Shown here: in pieces, positions 9,016 to 47,670 of the stretch | Layout: each line of letters opens with the position of its first letter | How positions within the stretch are numbered: the first letter of the stretch is position 1 | Origin: Hyphomonadaceae bacterium | Lineage (GTDB): Bacteria; Pseudomonadota; Alphaproteobacteria; Caulobacterales; Hyphomonadaceae | Length of the DNA stretch: 64,000 nt | Assembly (NCBI GenBank): GCA_027485145.1 | Contig: JAIXRO010000102.1 | Coordinates: forward strand, 1-64,000 | Direction of reading: 5' to 3' | Translations under genes and position numbers: made by a program | The notes under the pieces: generated by a model | The model's database searches: none | Told to the model about the DNA's origin: nothing | Seen by the model: only the letters and a program-made list of their open reading frames with translations

Positions 9016-9051
9016 GGGGGGTGGTCGAAAGACTGCCCCCTTTTTTCTTTT
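9016..9051 (+). terminator. Rho-independent terminator after the TonB-dependent receptor
   Basis: GGGGGTGGTC-GAAA-GACTGCCCCC stem-loop followed by TTTTTTCTTTT. Confidence 0.85.
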
Positions 9052-9135: not shown

Positions 9136-10713
9136 TTGAAACTCACGCTACCCCCACGCGTATCGCCGATGCAGTTTGATGCCGCGCTAAAGGCGTTTGC
9201 AAGCGTTGTCGGCAAGGGATGGGTTCTTTCCTCAGACGAAGACCGCGACGCCTATGCAGACATCTATGCGCCCGGCCCGGAAACATTGTGGCCAGCTTCC
9301 GCTGCCGTCGCGCCGGGGTCAGCCGAAGAGGTGCAGGCCATCGTCCGGCTCGCCAACCAGTTTAAGACACCGCTTTGGCCCGTCAGCCGCGGCAAAAACT
9401 TGGGCTATGGGCAAGCTGCCCCCCGCATGGCGGGCTCAATTGTGCTCGATCTCGGGCGCATGAACAAGGTTCTCGAGGTTGATCCGGAGCTTGGCTATTG
9501 TGTGATTGAGCCCGGCGTCGGTTTCTTTGATCTTTATGAGCATTTGGCCCGTGAAAAGGCGCCCTTGTGGATGTCGGTTCCGGGCAATGGCTGGGGCTCT
9601 GTTCTCGGCAATGCGCTCGACCACGGTATTGGCTACACGCCTTATGGCCTGCATGCGCGCAACCTGTGCGGGCTTGAGGTGGTCATGCCTGATGGCGACA
9701 TGATGCGCACCGGCATGGCAGGAATGGCGAACAACAAGGCGTCACACCTTTTCCCGATGAGCTACGGCCCGGATTGGACGCACATGTTTACCCAGTCCAA
9801 CATGGGCGTCGTGACGAAGGCCGGCGTGTTCTTGCAGCCAGAGCCGGAAACCTCGCTCGAACTCTCTTTCGACATTCCCAATGAAGAGGATATCGGCTGG
9901 GTCATGGACATCATCGCGCCGATGAAGATCGCGGGCTTGATCGACCAAAACGTGTTTATTCCCTCGTGGCTCGGCAAGATCGTACTGCTCGGGCAGCGCA
10001 AGGATTTCTGGGATAAGCCGTCCGCCATTCCAGACTGGCGGGTGAAGGAGCTCCTTAAGGAGCACAAGCTAGGTTATTGGAAGGTCCAAATCCGGCTTTA
10101 CGGCGATGAAAACGTCAACAAGGCCAAGGCCGAAGTCGTGAAGGCTGCCTTCAAAAAGCATCTCGATACGCCCCCACAGGAAGTTTGGTGGCGGCAGGGC
10201 GAAGAACGCAACATTTATGATCTGACGGTCGGCGTTCCGACTGCGGTGCCATTGCAGATGGGGGATTGGGTTGGAGGGCGCAGCGCACACCTTGGCTTCT
10301 CACCGGTTGTTCCGGCAAATTCGAAGCATGTGATGGATCAGCTGAAGCGCAGCCGCAAAATCATCGCCGACCATGATGTTGATTTTTATGCCAGCTTCAC
10401 GATCGGCGGAAGATTTGCGAACAACATCAACATGTTGATGTATGATCGTGACAAGCCGGAGCAGGTTGAAAGCATGAAGAAACTGTTCAGTGCGCTCGTC
10501 ACAGAAAGCGCCAAAGCGGGTTATGCGGAATATCGCACGCACCTCGGTTGGATGGACGCGGTGGCCGACACGTTTGATTTCAACAATCACGCGCAGCGCC
10601 GCATGAATGAAAAGGTAAAGGACGCGCTCGACCCCAATGGCATCATTGCGCCGGGTAAACAGGGCGTTTGGCCCAGCGTCTACCGGGATCAGTCAAAGGA
10701 GGGCCGGGCATGA
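9136..10713 (+). CDS. FAD-binding VAO/4-cresol-dehydrogenase-type oxidoreductase, flavoprotein subunit (525 aa)
   Basis: PP-loop-type FAD domain (WPVSRGKNLGYG), C-terminal YRTHLGWMDAVADTFDFNNHAQRRMNEKVKDALDPNGIIAPGKQGVWP as in VAO/PCMH proteins; overlaps a cytochrome c gene. Confidence 0.9.
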   Translation: MKLTLPPRVSPMQFDAALKAFASVVGKGWVLSSDEDRDAYADIYAPGPETLWPASAAVAPGSAEEVQAIVRLANQFKTPLWPVSRGKNLGYGQAAPRMAGSIVLDLGRMNKVLEVDPELGYCVIEPGVGFFDLYEHLAREKAPLWMSVPGNGWGSVLGNALDHGIGYTPYGLHARNLCGLEVVMPDGDMMRTGMAGMANNKASHLFPMSYGPDWTHMFTQSNMGVVTKAGVFLQPEPETSLELSFDIPNEEDIGWVMDIIAPMKIAGLIDQNVFIPSWLGKIVLLGQRKDFWDKPSAIPDWRVKELLKEHKLGYWKVQIRLYGDENVNKAKAEVVKAAFKKHLDTPPQEVWWRQGEERNIYDLTVGVPTAVPLQMGDWVGGRSAHLGFSPVVPANSKHVMDQLKRSRKIIADHDVDFYASFTIGGRFANNINMLMYDRDKPEQVESMKKLFSALVTESAKAGYAEYRTHLGWMDAVADTFDFNNHAQRRMNEKVKDALDPNGIIAPGKQGVWPSVYRDQSKEGRA

Positions 10714-11129
10714 AGCGCTTCGTTCTTTTGGGCGCGCTGCTCCTCGCCGCCTGTAACAAGACATCCGCTCCGGCACCTGAGGCTGCGAAGGGCGGTCCAC
10801 CGCCATTGCCGCCCTATCAGATGCGTGCCGAGGCGCCGACGGGAGACAGGCTGGCAGCCGGCGGAGATGGAGAGAAGCTCTATTCCAATCACTGCGGCTA
10901 TTGCCATTTGCCCGCCGGCATGGGGACAAACCTGCTCACCAAACAGCGTATGATGATGGGAGAGCCCCCGGAAAATGGGCTGTTGACCAATCGCAAAGAC
11001 CTGACGGCGGATTACATCAAGTCCGTGGTGCGCATGGGGAAGGTGGCCATGCCGCGCCAGACCCGCGTCGACATTACCGATGCGGAACTGGATGCCGTCG
11101 CCGCCTATCTTGCAAAGGCTGACAAATGA
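10710..11129 (+). CDS. Cytochrome c lipoprotein, likely electron-accepting subunit of the preceding flavoprotein (139 aa)
   Basis: Lipobox LLLAAC; heme motif CGYCH; ATGA overlap with the flavoprotein stop. Confidence 0.9.
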   Translation: MKRFVLLGALLLAACNKTSAPAPEAAKGGPPPLPPYQMRAEAPTGDRLAAGGDGEKLYSNHCGYCHLPAGMGTNLLTKQRMMMGEPPENGLLTNRKDLTADYIKSVVRMGKVAMPRQTRVDITDAELDAVAAYLAKADK

Positions 11130-11476
11130 ACCTCAATCGCCGAACTTTGATCAAGACGGGCGTGATCACTGCGGCCTCGGCTGCAACGTTGACGTCCGCT
11201 GCCGCGCAGGGGCCTGCGCTCGTCGTGTTTGACAGTCGTCTGCCAGAGAGCGTCGCCTTTGCGCAGGGCTTGAGTGGCGCCAAACTCGATGTGGCACATG
11301 AAGACCGGACCTTTTGGGCGACGCTGCGCGCTGGGGCACCAAAGGGCCGTGTCGTCGGTTTGACCCGCTGGAGCGACCTCGTCGTCGTCCGCGGCGAACT
11401 GGAAGCCCAGGGCAAGCGCCTTAAGGCCGAACGTCAGAGAGATCCACACGCGCCCTTCCATTGGGAAATGGCCTGA
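11126..11476 (+). CDS. Small Tat-signal protein of unknown function (116 aa)
   Basis: MNLNRRTLIKTGVITAASAATLTSAAAQ (twin-arginine plus AxA-type site); ATGA overlap with the cytochrome gene. Confidence 0.78.
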   Translation: MNLNRRTLIKTGVITAASAATLTSAAAQGPALVVFDSRLPESVAFAQGLSGAKLDVAHEDRTFWATLRAGAPKGRVVGLTRWSDLVVVRGELEAQGKRLKAERQRDPHAPFHWEMA

Positions 11477-29134: not shown

Positions 29135-30682
29135 ATGACGATCATCGGTGGAATGGACGTTGCTATCAAGGCCATGCGGTCCGTTCTTGGCGAAGACAAT
29201 GTTCTCACGGGTCCGGCTGCAATGGCGGCTTACGGAGATCCTTATGCCCCGCCCGGCGACTGGTATCAGCCGGGGGCTGTCCTTTTGCCGTCGACCGTAG
29301 AGGAAGTGCAGGCCGTCCTTCGTGTGGCGAACGAACACCGCACGCACGTTTGGACGAGCAGCCAAGGCCGGAACAAGGGATATGGCGGCGGAGCGCCGCG
29401 TGTGTCGGGAAGTTTTGCCCTTTCGCTCCGGCGAATGAACCGCGTTCTCGAAGTTGATGAAGACAACTGCTTTGCCGTGGTTGAGCCCGGTGTGCGCTTC
29501 TTCGATCTTTACGATCACCTTCGGGCGACGGGATCGAGACTCTGGATGTCCGTGCCGGATTTGGGCGGCGGTAGCGTCATTGGTAACGCATTAGATCACG
29601 GCGCAGGATATACGCCGCTGGGGGATCATTTCGGCAATCATTGCGGCTTGGAGATCGTGCTCGCAAATGGGGATATCCTGCGCACAGGCATGGGCGGCAT
29701 GACCAACACGCGTGCGTGGCATGTCTATCCGCATGGCTGTGGACCGACCTTTGACGGACTGTTCAGCCAGTCCAATTATGGCATTGTGACCAAGATGGGC
29801 GTCTCTCTCATGCCTGCGCCGGAAGTCTATATGCCGGGCTGGTTGACGCTCGACAGCGAAGATCAGTTTGGACCGTTTTTGGATGCGCTGCGCCCATTGA
29901 TGATTGATGGGACGATTTCAAACCAACCCATGATCATCAATGCTGTATGCGCGGCGAGTGCGTTTTGGCAGCGCGATCATTGGTATACGGGGACCGACGC
30001 CATTCCCGATACCGTCATTGATAAGATCGCTGCGACGCCCGGCTTCGGCCGTTGGGTGATGCGCTTTGCCCTTTATGGCGACGACCCGGTGGTCGAGCAT
30101 AACCGCAAGAAGGTCGACGCCGCCTTCGCGCACATACCGGGATGCGCGATCAGCTACGAAAAATATGATGGCCGTAACCTGCCGGTGATGGAAAACCCCC
30201 ACCACGTGGTGCAGGCAGGCATTCCGTCCATGGCACTTGACCAGATGACGTGCTGGTATGGCGGAGAGAAGGGCGGGCATATCGGCTTTTCCTGCGCTGT
30301 GCCGATTTCAGCGAAAGATGGGACCGCCATTCGGGATCTGTCGCGCGCGCAGCTGAGCAAGGATGGATTGGATTATTCGGCCGCCATCATCGTGACCAAG
30401 CGCGCAATGATCCACGTTGCGCTTGTCGTCTTCGACACCGAGGATGAAGCGCAGGCACGAGGTGCCTATCAGTCGGTGAAGGACATGATTCCTGTTGCTG
30501 CTGCCCAAGGCTATGGCGAATATCGCAGCCACATCGATTTCATGGATCTGGTTGCCGACCAATATGATTTTAACAACCACGCCCAGCGCCGCTTTGCCGA
30601 GCTGATCAAGGATGCCGTTGATCCTGCGGGCATCCTCTCACCGGGCAAGCAAGGCATCTGGCCAAAGGAAATGCGCAAATGA
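29135..30682 (+). CDS. FAD-binding VAO-type oxidoreductase (515 aa)
   Basis: VWTSSQGRNKGYGGGAPR, VEPGVRFFDLYDHL, VIGNALDHGAGYTPLGDHFGNHCGLE, YRSHIDFMDLVADQYDFNNHAQRRFAELIKDAVDPAGILSPGKQGIWP; no adjacent cytochrome gene. Confidence 0.9.
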   Translation: MTIIGGMDVAIKAMRSVLGEDNVLTGPAAMAAYGDPYAPPGDWYQPGAVLLPSTVEEVQAVLRVANEHRTHVWTSSQGRNKGYGGGAPRVSGSFALSLRRMNRVLEVDEDNCFAVVEPGVRFFDLYDHLRATGSRLWMSVPDLGGGSVIGNALDHGAGYTPLGDHFGNHCGLEIVLANGDILRTGMGGMTNTRAWHVYPHGCGPTFDGLFSQSNYGIVTKMGVSLMPAPEVYMPGWLTLDSEDQFGPFLDALRPLMIDGTISNQPMIINAVCAASAFWQRDHWYTGTDAIPDTVIDKIAATPGFGRWVMRFALYGDDPVVEHNRKKVDAAFAHIPGCAISYEKYDGRNLPVMENPHHVVQAGIPSMALDQMTCWYGGEKGGHIGFSCAVPISAKDGTAIRDLSRAQLSKDGLDYSAAIIVTKRAMIHVALVVFDTEDEAQARGAYQSVKDMIPVAAAQGYGEYRSHIDFMDLVADQYDFNNHAQRRFAELIKDAVDPAGILSPGKQGIWPKEMRK

Positions 30683-33428: not shown

Positions 33429-33815
33429 ATGCCTCTTGCAAACCGAACGCCAGTCACATTCCTGTTCACCCGCGCACGGGAAAAGGCGCTGCCTTTTTAC
33501 CGTGATGTTCTGGGCCTGACTTTTGTGGGGTCTGATCAATTCGCTGACCGCTTCGACCTAAATGGTGTCAGCCTGCGCATTGTGCCGATACCGGACCACA
33601 GTCCAAGCCCGCACACCGTGCTGGGGTGGGATGTCCCCGATATCGCCGCAACCTGTGCCGCGTTGCGGGCCAAAGGCGTCACCTTTGAGATGTATGAGGG
33701 CTTCGGTCAGGATGCGCATGGCATCTGGACCGCCCCGGATGGTCACGCAAAAATTGCCTGGTTCTTAGACCCTGATGGCAATAATTTGAGCATCACCGAA
33801 GGCCCGGCGGACTAG
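33429..33815 (+). CDS. VOC/glyoxalase-fold protein (128 aa)
   Basis: VTFLFTRAREKALPFYRDVLGLTFVGSDQF..IAWFLDPDGNNLSITE. Confidence 0.85.
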   Translation: MPLANRTPVTFLFTRAREKALPFYRDVLGLTFVGSDQFADRFDLNGVSLRIVPIPDHSPSPHTVLGWDVPDIAATCAALRAKGVTFEMYEGFGQDAHGIWTAPDGHAKIAWFLDPDGNNLSITEGPAD

Positions 33816-34372
33816 AGAACCCGCCAGACCCAAAGCTTTATGCCCGCCGGATAGCGCGCGCCGGAACAGATGAAGATGCTCTTATTCATCCATTCATATT
33901 TGCCCTTGGGCGCAATGAACTCCGGCACTGTGCGGAAATAATATTCCGCCGGATCAACCTCTTCACCGGCGGCGAGACGTTTCATGACGTCTGGCGGGCC
34001 GTGACGCAGGCCTTTGTTGTGGATCTGGATGACGACGCCATCATCGGTCTTCAAAGCATAGATGGCATCCGCGACGGTCACGCCATCGGGGCGCGTAAGT
34101 TGCCAGTCGGCCGCATTGCCCATCAGTTGGCCTTTGATCAGCGGGCCTTCCACGCGGCCACCTTCAAAGATCGGGATGATGCGTCGCGTCCCGTCGGTGA
34201 CGTCGCCGATGGGGATTGGTGCGCCAAGATCACCGCTGGCTTCATACACAAATTCGAGTTCGGGTTTGATCATGCTGGAAGGTCCTTTTGACAGTTTGGG
34301 AATGGCGAACGCGGCCGAGGGCAGGGCGGTGGCGCCCAGCCCGATGACCGCCGTCCTTCTGTCGATTTTCAC
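33812..34372 (-). CDS. DUF3237-like protein with Tat-like N-terminal signal (186 aa)
   Basis: MKIDRRTAVIGLGATALPSAAFA signal; LEFVYEASGDLGAPIPIGDVTDGTRRIIPIFEGGRVEGPLIKGQLMGNAADWQLTRPDGVTVADAIYALKTDDGVVIQIHNKGLR, DUF3237 pattern. Confidence 0.8.
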   Translation of the reverse strand: MKIDRRTAVIGLGATALPSAAFAIPKLSKGPSSMIKPELEFVYEASGDLGAPIPIGDVTDGTRRIIPIFEGGRVEGPLIKGQLMGNAADWQLTRPDGVTVADAIYALKTDDGVVIQIHNKGLRHGPPDVMKRLAAGEEVDPAEYYFRTVPEFIAPKGKYEWMNKSIFICSGARYPAGIKLWVWRVL

Positions 34373-44729: not shown

Positions 44730-45737
44730 TTATCGATCGGGTGCGATCAGCACTTTGCACTCATGTGTGCGCTTGCGCAGCGCCTCAAATCGGACTGGCG
44801 TGTCAGCAAGTGAAATGGTGTCGGTTACCAGCGCGCGCGGTTCGGCTGCGCCAGCGTCGAGCGCGTCGAGTGCTTCTTCATATTCCTGCCGCGTGAAGAA
44901 GGCGGAGGTGATGAGACGCACCTCCTTGGACAGCATGGCAAAGCTGTTGAATGTGTCTGGCCGGGTACACAGGCCGAGTAGGCAGATCGTGCCGCGCTTA
45001 CGGACTTGCTCTACGGCTTGGGCGATCAGGCCGGGCACACCCACGCACTCAAAGACGATGTCGGGCTTGGCGCCGAGCATCTGCTCCGGACCGCCGACGG
45101 GATCGTCGGGGCTGACGCAGAAGCCAGTTGCGCCCATCTCCATTGCACGCGCTTCCTGGAAGGTTGCAAGATCTTGGATGATGACGTCGCTCGCGCCCTT
45201 GCGCCGTGCCCAGAAGGCAACGGCAAGACCGATTGGACCAGCGCCGAGGATCAACACTTTGTCGCCCGGCTTCATGTCCGACATGTTCACGCCATGGAGG
45301 GCGACAGCCAGCGGTTCGATGATGGCACCATCTGCAAGGCTGGCCGATTGGGGCAGGCGAATGCACTGGTTCGGTTTAGTGACTGCATATTCGGCATAGC
45401 CGCCGCCCTGCAGGCCAAAATGATCGCACCAGGCCACTTCTCCGGACATGCAGGACGCACAATGTCCGCAGCTTTTTAGAGGGATGACGGAAACAAGATC
45501 GCCAAGCTTCAGCCCTTCTGCACCCTTGCCAAGGGCCACGACTTCGCCCGCAAATTCATGGCCGAGAACGTCGCCCTTATTGATGCCGTAGGCCGGGTCT
45601 TCGGTCATGTGCAGATCAGACCCGCAAATGCCGCAGCGCCCAACCTTGACGACGACTTCATCCGCCTGCGGTGTCGGGTCGTCGAGGGTCTCCAGCGCTA
45701 GCGGCTGGTGGAGTCCTTGCATGACCACAGCGCGCAT
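44730..45737 (-). CDS. Zinc-dependent medium-chain alcohol dehydrogenase (335 aa)
   Basis: GRCGICGSDLHMTED, GHEFAGEVVALG, structural-zinc CGHCASCMSGEVAWC, VLILGAGPIGLAVA. Confidence 0.92.
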   Translation of the reverse strand: MRAVVMQGLHQPLALETLDDPTPQADEVVVKVGRCGICGSDLHMTEDPAYGINKGDVLGHEFAGEVVALGKGAEGLKLGDLVSVIPLKSCGHCASCMSGEVAWCDHFGLQGGGYAEYAVTKPNQCIRLPQSASLADGAIIEPLAVALHGVNMSDMKPGDKVLILGAGPIGLAVAFWARRKGASDVIIQDLATFQEARAMEMGATGFCVSPDDPVGGPEQMLGAKPDIVFECVGVPGLIAQAVEQVRKRGTICLLGLCTRPDTFNSFAMLSKEVRLITSAFFTRQEYEEALDALDAGAAEPRALVTDTISLADTPVRFEALRKRTHECKVLIAPDR

Positions 45738-47356
45738 CAGGCGATCCCGGACTTGCCCGGCGCGATGACGCCATTGGGATCAATCGCGTTCTTTAGAAGC
45801 TTGTTGAAGTCACGGTTGGTCTGGCCATATTGCTGGGCAACCAGTTCCATCGAGTTCACGCCAGTCCGATAACTGGCCCAGCCCTTTTTGCCGAATGTCG
45901 TGACGAGATCCTGATAGCAGGCGTCGGCCTTCTTTTCCTGCTCAGGGTCGCTCTTGTCATAGAGGAGGGCGATGATGTGGTGAAGATCACGCCAGCCAAT
46001 GGCATAGGCTGCGGTATAGTCGAAGCCATGTTTATCGAGGATTTCGCGGGCAAGTTTTGTCTGGCCCTCGGCCTCAGCGCCCTTAGCGGCCGCAACCGGT
46101 GCGAACCAGGCCAGACCTCCACCAGCCCCACGCCAGCGCAGCAGGCCGATCTCATCGAGGTTCAGGCCGCCTTCCATCAGTGTTGCATGGTGGTGGAACC
46201 ATGGGTTCTCGCCCATTTCCGCGGCTGTCAGCACTTCACCACCGCTCGCCGTCAATTGCGCGCGGATGATGGGTTCAATGGCAGCCACAGTCTGTTCCGT
46301 GCCATAGAGGGCGAAATATGTGTTCCACATGCCGAGGCCATTCGCCTTGGCCGCTTTCTTGACCGACGCATCATCCAATGGCTGGCCATCGGGCACAATC
46401 TCATTCCGGCGCTTGAACATGGCGAGCTGATAAGATGCGCTCATCATCAAGTTGCAGTTGGCGACAAGGCTGGAGACGCGGAGTGGTCGCATCGCTTCGA
46501 TGATCTTGGGCACGTCGGCCATATTGTCATGGCGGATCATGAACGGCTTGTAGACCGGCGGCCGCGGCATCAGCCACATGCCCATTTTCGTCACGATGCC
46601 GAAATTGGACTGGGTGAACAGGCCGTCGACATAAGGGCCGTAACCCCATTTGAATGCCTGCCACGCTGTTGAGCCTTCAATGCTGCCCATGCCGGTGCGA
46701 AGGATTTCCGCGTTAGGCAGGACAACTTCCATGCCGCACTGGAAGGTGAAGTGCTCGCCATAAGGCGTGTAGCCGACACCGCGGTCGAGTGTGTTGCCGA
46801 CGGGCGAGGCAATCGGGCCTACGGTCGGAACGTCAATCCAAAGCGGGATGTTATTGTCGTCCAGATAGTCCTTGAGCTGCTGGTAGGTCACGCCTGGCTC
46901 AATGAGACAGGTGCCCAGATCTGCGTCCACTTCAAGGATGCGGTTCATACGCTTGAGGTCGAGGACGATCTGCCCCGGCGTCGCGGGGGCCGCCATGCCA
47001 TAGCCCATGTTCTTGCCAGTAGAGATCGGCCAGATGGGCTGCTTGTACTTGTTCGCGATACGGACAATTTCCTGCACCTCTTCCACCGTGCGCGGGCAGA
47101 CGGCGCCGAGCGGAACGTGCCGGCCATTTGGATCAGGAACGTAGACCTTTCCCCAAGGCATCACGGCTTCGGGATCGCCGAAGACCCATTCATCCCCAAC
47201 GACACTGCGCATCGCCTTAATGGCGCCCGCAAAGTCCGCCTTGGTAACGCCGGGGGCAAGGGTGCCCTTATTGTCGCAAGAGGCGAGGCCGACCATGGCG
47301 GCGCCAAGAACGCTCGCGCCGATCAGGCCACGACGGTTGAGTTCAAATTCGCTCAT
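45737..47356 (-). CDS. FAD-binding VAO/4-cresol-dehydrogenase-type oxidoreductase with predicted Tat/lipoprotein signal (539 aa)
   Basis: MSEFELNRRGLIGASVLGAAMVGLASCDNK; WPISTGKNMGYGMAAPATPG; VGNTLDRGVGYTPYGEHFTFQCGMEVVLP; IDPNGVIAPGKSGIA. Confidence 0.9.
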   Translation of the reverse strand: MSEFELNRRGLIGASVLGAAMVGLASCDNKGTLAPGVTKADFAGAIKAMRSVVGDEWVFGDPEAVMPWGKVYVPDPNGRHVPLGAVCPRTVEEVQEIVRIANKYKQPIWPISTGKNMGYGMAAPATPGQIVLDLKRMNRILEVDADLGTCLIEPGVTYQQLKDYLDDNNIPLWIDVPTVGPIASPVGNTLDRGVGYTPYGEHFTFQCGMEVVLPNAEILRTGMGSIEGSTAWQAFKWGYGPYVDGLFTQSNFGIVTKMGMWLMPRPPVYKPFMIRHDNMADVPKIIEAMRPLRVSSLVANCNLMMSASYQLAMFKRRNEIVPDGQPLDDASVKKAAKANGLGMWNTYFALYGTEQTVAAIEPIIRAQLTASGGEVLTAAEMGENPWFHHHATLMEGGLNLDEIGLLRWRGAGGGLAWFAPVAAAKGAEAEGQTKLAREILDKHGFDYTAAYAIGWRDLHHIIALLYDKSDPEQEKKADACYQDLVTTFGKKGWASYRTGVNSMELVAQQYGQTNRDFNKLLKNAIDPNGVIAPGKSGIA

Positions 47357-47670
47357 TTGCCGTGCTCCTCAGTGCGGGCGGGGCCTTTGGAAATCCAGAC
47401 AGCGAGCGCATCGAGCTCTGCATTGGTCACTTCGGTCGGGCGGAAGGCTGGCATGCCGTTGCGACCATGCCGGGTCACCGCCTTGATCATATCGGTGTCC
47501 AGTTTTCTGCCAAGAATGATCGGGCCGACATTCTTGCCATGGCAATATCCGCACACCTTTGCGTAGGTGACTTCAGGTGGTCGTTCGGGTTGATATTCGC
47601 CCAGCTTTTGGGCGGCATATGCTGCTGAGGCGAGGCCAAGGCCTGCCGCGATACCGATGATCACTTTCAT
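47353..47670 (-). CDS. Small exported cytochrome c, likely partner of the downstream flavoprotein (105 aa)
   Basis: Signal MKVIIGIAAGLGLASAAYAA; heme motif CGYCH; overlap with 45737-47356. Confidence 0.88.
   Translation of the reverse strand: MKVIIGIAAGLGLASAAYAAQKLGEYQPERPPEVTYAKVCGYCHGKNVGPIILGRKLDTDMIKAVTRHGRNGMPAFRPTEVTNAELDALAVWISKGPARTEEHGK

Follow-up and report, generated by a model that had tools for sequence, protein, structure and literature searches.

A small twin-arginine signal protein as the probable export partner of a VAO/PCMH-type flavoprotein

In bisphenol F hydroxylase, the cytochrome subunit BpfB has a Sec/SPII signal and the flavoprotein BpfA has none, a pattern shared by PchCF, which is periplasmic, and by PcmIG (PMC12724174). 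The authors suggested that the cytochrome signal guides export, and the question of how the flavoprotein is exported was still open in 2025 (PMC12724174). In direct-electron-transfer FAD glucose dehydrogenase, the gamma or hitchhiker subunit is required for secretion of the FAD subunit (PMC6719666). E. coli served as host for recombinant production of the VAO-family enzymes VAD and nsVAO, which were then studied with FAD, no partner being mentioned in the accessible portion of the source (PMC7617285). Here, we analyzed an operon whose third gene, named X, offers a candidate answer to how a signal-less flavoprotein arrives in the periplasm in p-cresol methylhydroxylase (PCMH) and its relatives.

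The window, i.e., the whole 64-kb stretch of Hyphomonadaceae DNA under analysis, contains three overlapping reading frames that the first-pass annotation had read as a signal-less flavoprotein, a cytochrome c with LLLAAC and CGYCH motifs, and a small Tat-signal protein, joined by ATGA junctions. All of these elements were confirmed, and a terminator-like hairpin was noted ahead of them:

9016-9041 (+): terminator-like hairpin plus T run, with an 11-bp stem and T-rich tail (consensus scan only)
9136-10713 (+): VAO/PCMH-family flavoprotein, 525 aa, TTG start, N5-site motif SVPGNG
10710-11129 (+): lipoprotein cytochrome c, 139 aa, LLLAAC lipobox, CGYCH
11126-11476 (+): X, Tat-signal protein, 116 aa, NRRTLIK, cleavage site between SAAA and QG

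The ATGA overlaps lie at 10710-10713 and 11126-11129, and the flavoprotein, cytochrome c, and X genes are one unit. The hairpin stands between an upstream TonB receptor gene and this operon, and derives from a consensus scan in which the total number of terminator sites was not above chance level. GAGGAG precedes the TTG start of the flavoprotein, in which neither a signal peptide nor a hydrophobic N-terminus was found by sequence reading. Domain searches retrieved FAD_binding_4 (6.5e-30) and FAD-oxidase_C (7e-9) in the flavoprotein and Cytochrome_CBB3 (1.3e-13) in the cytochrome, and the top PDB matches of the flavoprotein were 8s7n-8s7w (vanillyl-alcohol dehydrogenase) together with eugenol and vanillyl-alcohol oxidases. 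With these two domains and full-length similarity to VAO, PCMH, and EUGO, the flavoprotein belongs to the 4-phenol-oxidizing VAO/PCMH enzymes, and it falls in their dehydrogenase branch, having an adjacent cytochrome c partner and lacking the oxidase pair at the flavin N5 site, given as Leu plus Asp/Glu in the accessible portion of the published work (PMC7617285). Its own N5 site, SVPGNG, presents Asn, neither the usual Pro nor Ile. TatC is present in the genome from which the window comes.

The N-terminus of X, MNLNRRTLIKTGVITAASAATLTSAAA followed by QG (MNLNRRTLIK at the start, SAAA and QG at the predicted cleavage site), combines an RR motif, an uncharged h-region, and an AxA site according to both sequence reading and a motif script. 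It remained below the cutoff of the curated Pfam model TAT_signal PF10518 (13.5 vs. 22.7 bits), so that the Tat call on X relies on these three elements, and Tat calls in this study are motif-based only; of 40 X proteins, 19 reached E<=1 with TAT_signal. Apart from this sub-threshold signal, searches of domain libraries and the PDB gave no Pfam, NCBIfam, or PDB family match for the X of the window. The designation of this protein as an orphan held for domain libraries and the PDB, but not for genomes, in which homologues were found. Given that intact, close homologues sit at the same place (L030-L035, 49-100% identity), and that dN/dS is 0.12-0.22 for X (vs. 0.03-0.05 for the flavoprotein), we conclude that X is a real gene.

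AlphaFold2 gave a confident model of the mature domain of this X, with pLDDT above 90 over most of the domain and a predicted small alpha/beta fold of order E-H-E-H-E-H-E-E. The X of L116, modeled with lower confidence, has the same order plus one extra helix, and fold searches with these two models returned no significant PDB match. Across 40 X sequences, the mature domain has no invariant residues, a pattern more in line with an adaptor than with an enzyme or a redox carrier. Given that conserved redox ligands and catalytic residues are likewise absent, X most likely acts as a binding and export adaptor only. Iterated mature-only profile searches connected 38 of 42 X proteins, the four divergent ones (L131, L134, L072, and L078) having no HMM link to the family.

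With a profile built on the mature domain of X, signal peptide left out, we scanned 398 genomes of the order, in which VAO-type genes were located independently of X. Only 10 of these genomes contain a VAO-type flavoprotein gene, and all 11 X-profile matches at E<1e-3 adjoin one. Co-occurrence with VAO flavoproteins was the genomic test proposed by the first-pass annotation, and its hitchhiker idea survives this test, while export itself is what we still infer. Weak X matches from an earlier search (E about 0.001-0.01) were dropped, most of them not being recovered by the mature-domain model. Direct tblastn found no X homologues on plasmids; such homologues were reached through the flavoprotein instead. 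With further loci from plasmid records and from phylum- and class-level searches, about 42 X genes were found to adjoin VAO-type genes, in Alphaproteobacteria, Betaproteobacteria, and Campylobacterota. Since an RR-based scan supplied many of the X genes that the HMM had not detected, the invariant RR in X is partly due to ascertainment. Under a strict filter, the density of Tat-like small ORFs per kb was 27-fold lower at distances above 1.2 kb from the flavoprotein gene, the background being the distal parts of the loci.

Seven gene arrangements were observed (F, flavoprotein; C, cytochrome): F-C-X (19), X-F-C (8), C-X-F (4), divergent X'-F-C (3), F-X (3), X-F (3), and X-C-F (2). Reshuffled order with kept linkage is what functional coupling would predict. 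Three loci (L112, L113, and L129) keep X with a flavoprotein and have no adjacent cytochrome gene; thus, X follows the flavoprotein. Individual loci showed further variation. L107 has a second, apparently broken X copy, and in L117 and L118 two flavoprotein-cytochrome pairs flank a single X gene, as though both flavoproteins could share one escort. On plasmid pBN3 of Paraburkholderia aromaticivorans (L132, 3977-5344), IS5 has cut off the 5' end of the flavoprotein gene and the X gene is gone; pBN2 of the same organism (L072) has an intact flavoprotein copy with X.

Classified by hand from gene order, signals, and N5 motifs, 55 flavoprotein rows fell into three export states; these counts exclude GlcD-like matches (L120-L122 and L133) and the IS5-truncated L132. 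State A, a flavoprotein without signal and with X nearby, usually also with a cytochrome, comprised 43 rows, three of which have no adjacent cytochrome gene. State B, a flavoprotein with its own N-terminal Tat signal and a cytochrome and without X, comprised four (45737-47356 in the window, L115, L128, and L130). The remaining eight rows, state C, have neither signal, X, nor cytochrome, and are exactly those with an oxidase-type signature at the flavin N5 site, Asp and then Leu, Ile, or Val. X-less cytochrome-linked flavoproteins with their own Tat signal, and oxidase-type members with neither, had not been foreseen by the first-pass annotation. All three states occur within the window, state A in the operon above and the others in the following comparators:

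29135-30682 (+): second VAO-family flavoprotein, state C, oxidase signature SVPDLG; no cytochrome, X, or signal
45737-47356 (-): third VAO-family flavoprotein, state B, with a Tat signal of its own, MSEFELNRRGLIGASVLGAAMVGLASC; orthologous to PDB 9ffk/9fge
47353-47670 (-): cytochrome c partner of the state-B flavoprotein, CGYCH, Sec-type signal, ATGA overlap

The state-B protein matched PDB 9ffk/9fge with 1015 bits. Judged from its features, this PDB entry is probably the nsVAO of PMC7617285, and the pair at 45737-47670 suggests that this nsVAO-like "oxidase" may be a periplasmic dehydrogenase. The signal of the state-B protein is possibly of the Tat-lipoprotein type.

In the flavoprotein tree, state B forms one clade and arose once, and state C forms two groups and arose twice, so that there were few independent switches despite the large row counts. 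A Fisher test on the states gave 8e-10, a value that ignores shared descent and is not independent evidence, and phylogenetically independent-pair tests were not significant, with too few events. OxD-like flavoprotein-cytochrome pairs in L060, L069, and L070 lack a signal, have no X beside them, and show no evident export route of their own; in L069 and L070, the pair lies in the same operon as an X-flavoprotein pair. The flavoprotein in these pairs (9745-11211 in L069) is a second FAD oxidoreductase, more distantly related, with cytochrome c coming after it.

Given that X co-occurs family-wide in several orders, that Tat signals alternate between cis and trans, that oxidase-type members are without X, and that TatC is present in the genome, X is probably a dedicated Tat hitchhiker that brings the flavoprotein, already folded and loaded with FAD, to the periplasm. 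An untagged flavoprotein co-encoded with a Tat-tagged X is the configuration of a Tat hitchhiker pair. The products of the three genes would be a VAO/PCMH-type phenol dehydrogenase located in the periplasm and its export partner. In the proposed sequence, the flavoprotein would fold and bind FAD in the cytoplasm, where X would bind it and provide the twin-arginine signal, and Tat would carry the two across the membrane together, as a hitchhiker complex, with release following. The cytochrome would be exported separately via Sec as a lipoprotein, receive heme in the periplasm, and then join the delivered flavoprotein there. In PCMH, FAD is covalently linked only upon binding of the cytochrome subunit; therefore, the covalent step would fall after export.

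As an assembly factor or third subunit, exported unaccompanied through Tat and aiding flavoprotein folding or cytochrome docking in the periplasm, X would have its operon and compartment in common with the enzyme, and its presence with flavoproteins in every arrangement would fit as well; the cytoplasmic binding of X assumed by the hitchhiker reading is something we infer. However, such a role is unlikely, as it leaves unexplained both how the flavoprotein, exported otherwise, would get out and why the flavoproteins of X-less pairs have their own Tat signal. Moreover, PCMH as purified and crystallized consists of flavoprotein and cytochrome subunits only. The third subunit, which the first-pass annotation had offered as an alternative, is thus less favored than the hitchhiker. 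Redox-enzyme chaperones frequently accompany Tat substrates, and X could be imagined as a chaperone for FAD loading or flavinylation in the cytoplasm, with the Tat signal as a secondary feature. We consider this very doubtful, given the accessible account of recombinant VAD and nsVAO from E. coli with FAD and no partner (PMC7617285). In addition, the signal sits on X itself, state-B flavoproteins do without X, and X has no conserved catalytic residues.

Because Sec transports polypeptides in the unfolded state, and heme attachment is periplasmic, the cytochrome could not tow a folded flavoprotein. While the cytochrome is the obvious candidate, being exported and encoded alongside the flavoprotein, and guidance of the flavoprotein to the periplasm by its Sec/lipoprotein signal is what the BpfAB authors propose (PMC12724174), we regard this explanation as highly improbable: X is kept without an adjacent cytochrome in the three loci named above, and the bpf cluster has an X of its own. 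Finally, pathway operons do gather unrelated genes, and a DUF3237-like gene is also near several loci, but a reading of X as an exported yet unrelated product of this catabolic pathway, linked by shared regulation only, is scarcely credible given its strict retention through seven arrangements, across classes and different pathways, and with no significant X match away from a flavoprotein in the 398 genomes of the order.

Extending the hitchhiker reading to the whole family, we lean toward a general rule whereby every cytochrome-linked VAO/PCMH dehydrogenase would be Tat-exported, either via its own signal or via a fast-evolving alpha/beta hitchhiker of the X/PchX type, and oxygen-using oxidases would have neither; X would then be a new export-only family of Tat adaptors with a fold unlike that of the known hitchhiker. 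Hitchhiker export as such is already known, and neither X as a partner family nor its connection with VAO/PCMH enzymes seems to have been described in the papers searched, a literature search for pchX or for a Tat link to these enzymes having found nothing relevant. Bacteria that oxidize lignin-type phenols outside the inner membrane appear to export the flavin subunit by a small signal-bearing escort. This predicts a gene missing from recombinant work on lignin- and bisphenol-oxidizing enzymes. X or an own Tat signal could serve as a genomic marker separating periplasmic dehydrogenases from cytoplasmic oxidases, and the swap of X for a flavoprotein signal would represent a natural experiment in Tat targeting.

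The region downstream of the operon (11499-36000) looks like a lignin-aromatic catabolic cluster, with two GSTs, a PQQ alcohol dehydrogenase, aldehyde dehydrogenases, and aminomethyltransferase-like, MetF-like, PurU-like, and carotenoid-oxygenase-like genes. Within it, one DUF3237-like protein (33812-34372, minus strand) bears a Tat-like signal, MKIDRRTAVIGLGATALPSAAFA; DUF3237-like genes without such a signal are directly downstream of X in three relatives, L096, L097, and L099.

Among known systems, the pchACXF cluster of Pseudomonas putida, which the first-pass annotation had cited for its small gene of unclear role, became a stronger parallel. Locus L116 has the order ALDH-cyt c-X-flavoprotein, which is the pchA-C-X-F arrangement, its flavoprotein shares 76% identity with P. 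putida PchF (1wve), and its X, placed like PchX between cytochrome and flavoprotein, carries a Tat signal, MMQTDRRSLLKGLAAAGLAVSGMGLAQA. This comparison uses the L116 X as a stand-in for P. putida PchX, with ~25% identity to the X of the window; homology of the two is possible, with a window-group HMM match of 4e-4 and a group-level hhalign probability of 47%, and their predicted strand-helix order is the same. BpfAB of Sphingobium yanoikuyae has a signal-less VAO-type flavoprotein, a lipoprotein cytochrome, and then a Tat-signal gene, as in the window, but with bisphenol pathway genes around it in place of the GST, PQQ-ADH, and ALDH genes. In the SJTF8 cluster, identical in BpfA, this is a 189-aa Tat-signal gene between the cytochrome and a hydrolase, and it goes without mention in the text of PMC12724174. 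VAD of Marinicaulis flavus (PDB 8s7n, PMC7617285) is the top PDB match of the window flavoprotein, from which it differs by Pro instead of Asn at the N5 site and in having been studied as a single protein; the gene matching VAD (L104) has X directly upstream and cytochrome c downstream.

The gamma subunit of the FAD glucose dehydrogenase of Burkholderia cepacia is likewise a small Tat protein, encoded together with an FAD subunit that has no signal and with a c-type cytochrome. However, its partner is of the GMC family with a 3Fe-4S cluster, gamma consists of five helices in contrast to the predicted alpha/beta fold of X, and none of the 40 X members had a Pfam or NCBIfam match to the FAD-GDH gamma/gluconate 2-dehydrogenase subunit 3 family. 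The role proposed for X would be that of gamma, while sequence and predicted fold are different. In [NiFe]-hydrogenases and formate dehydrogenases, too, the signal of one partner exports an untagged partner (PMC10924467), but there both partners are catalytic or transfer electrons, whereas X is seemingly dedicated to export.
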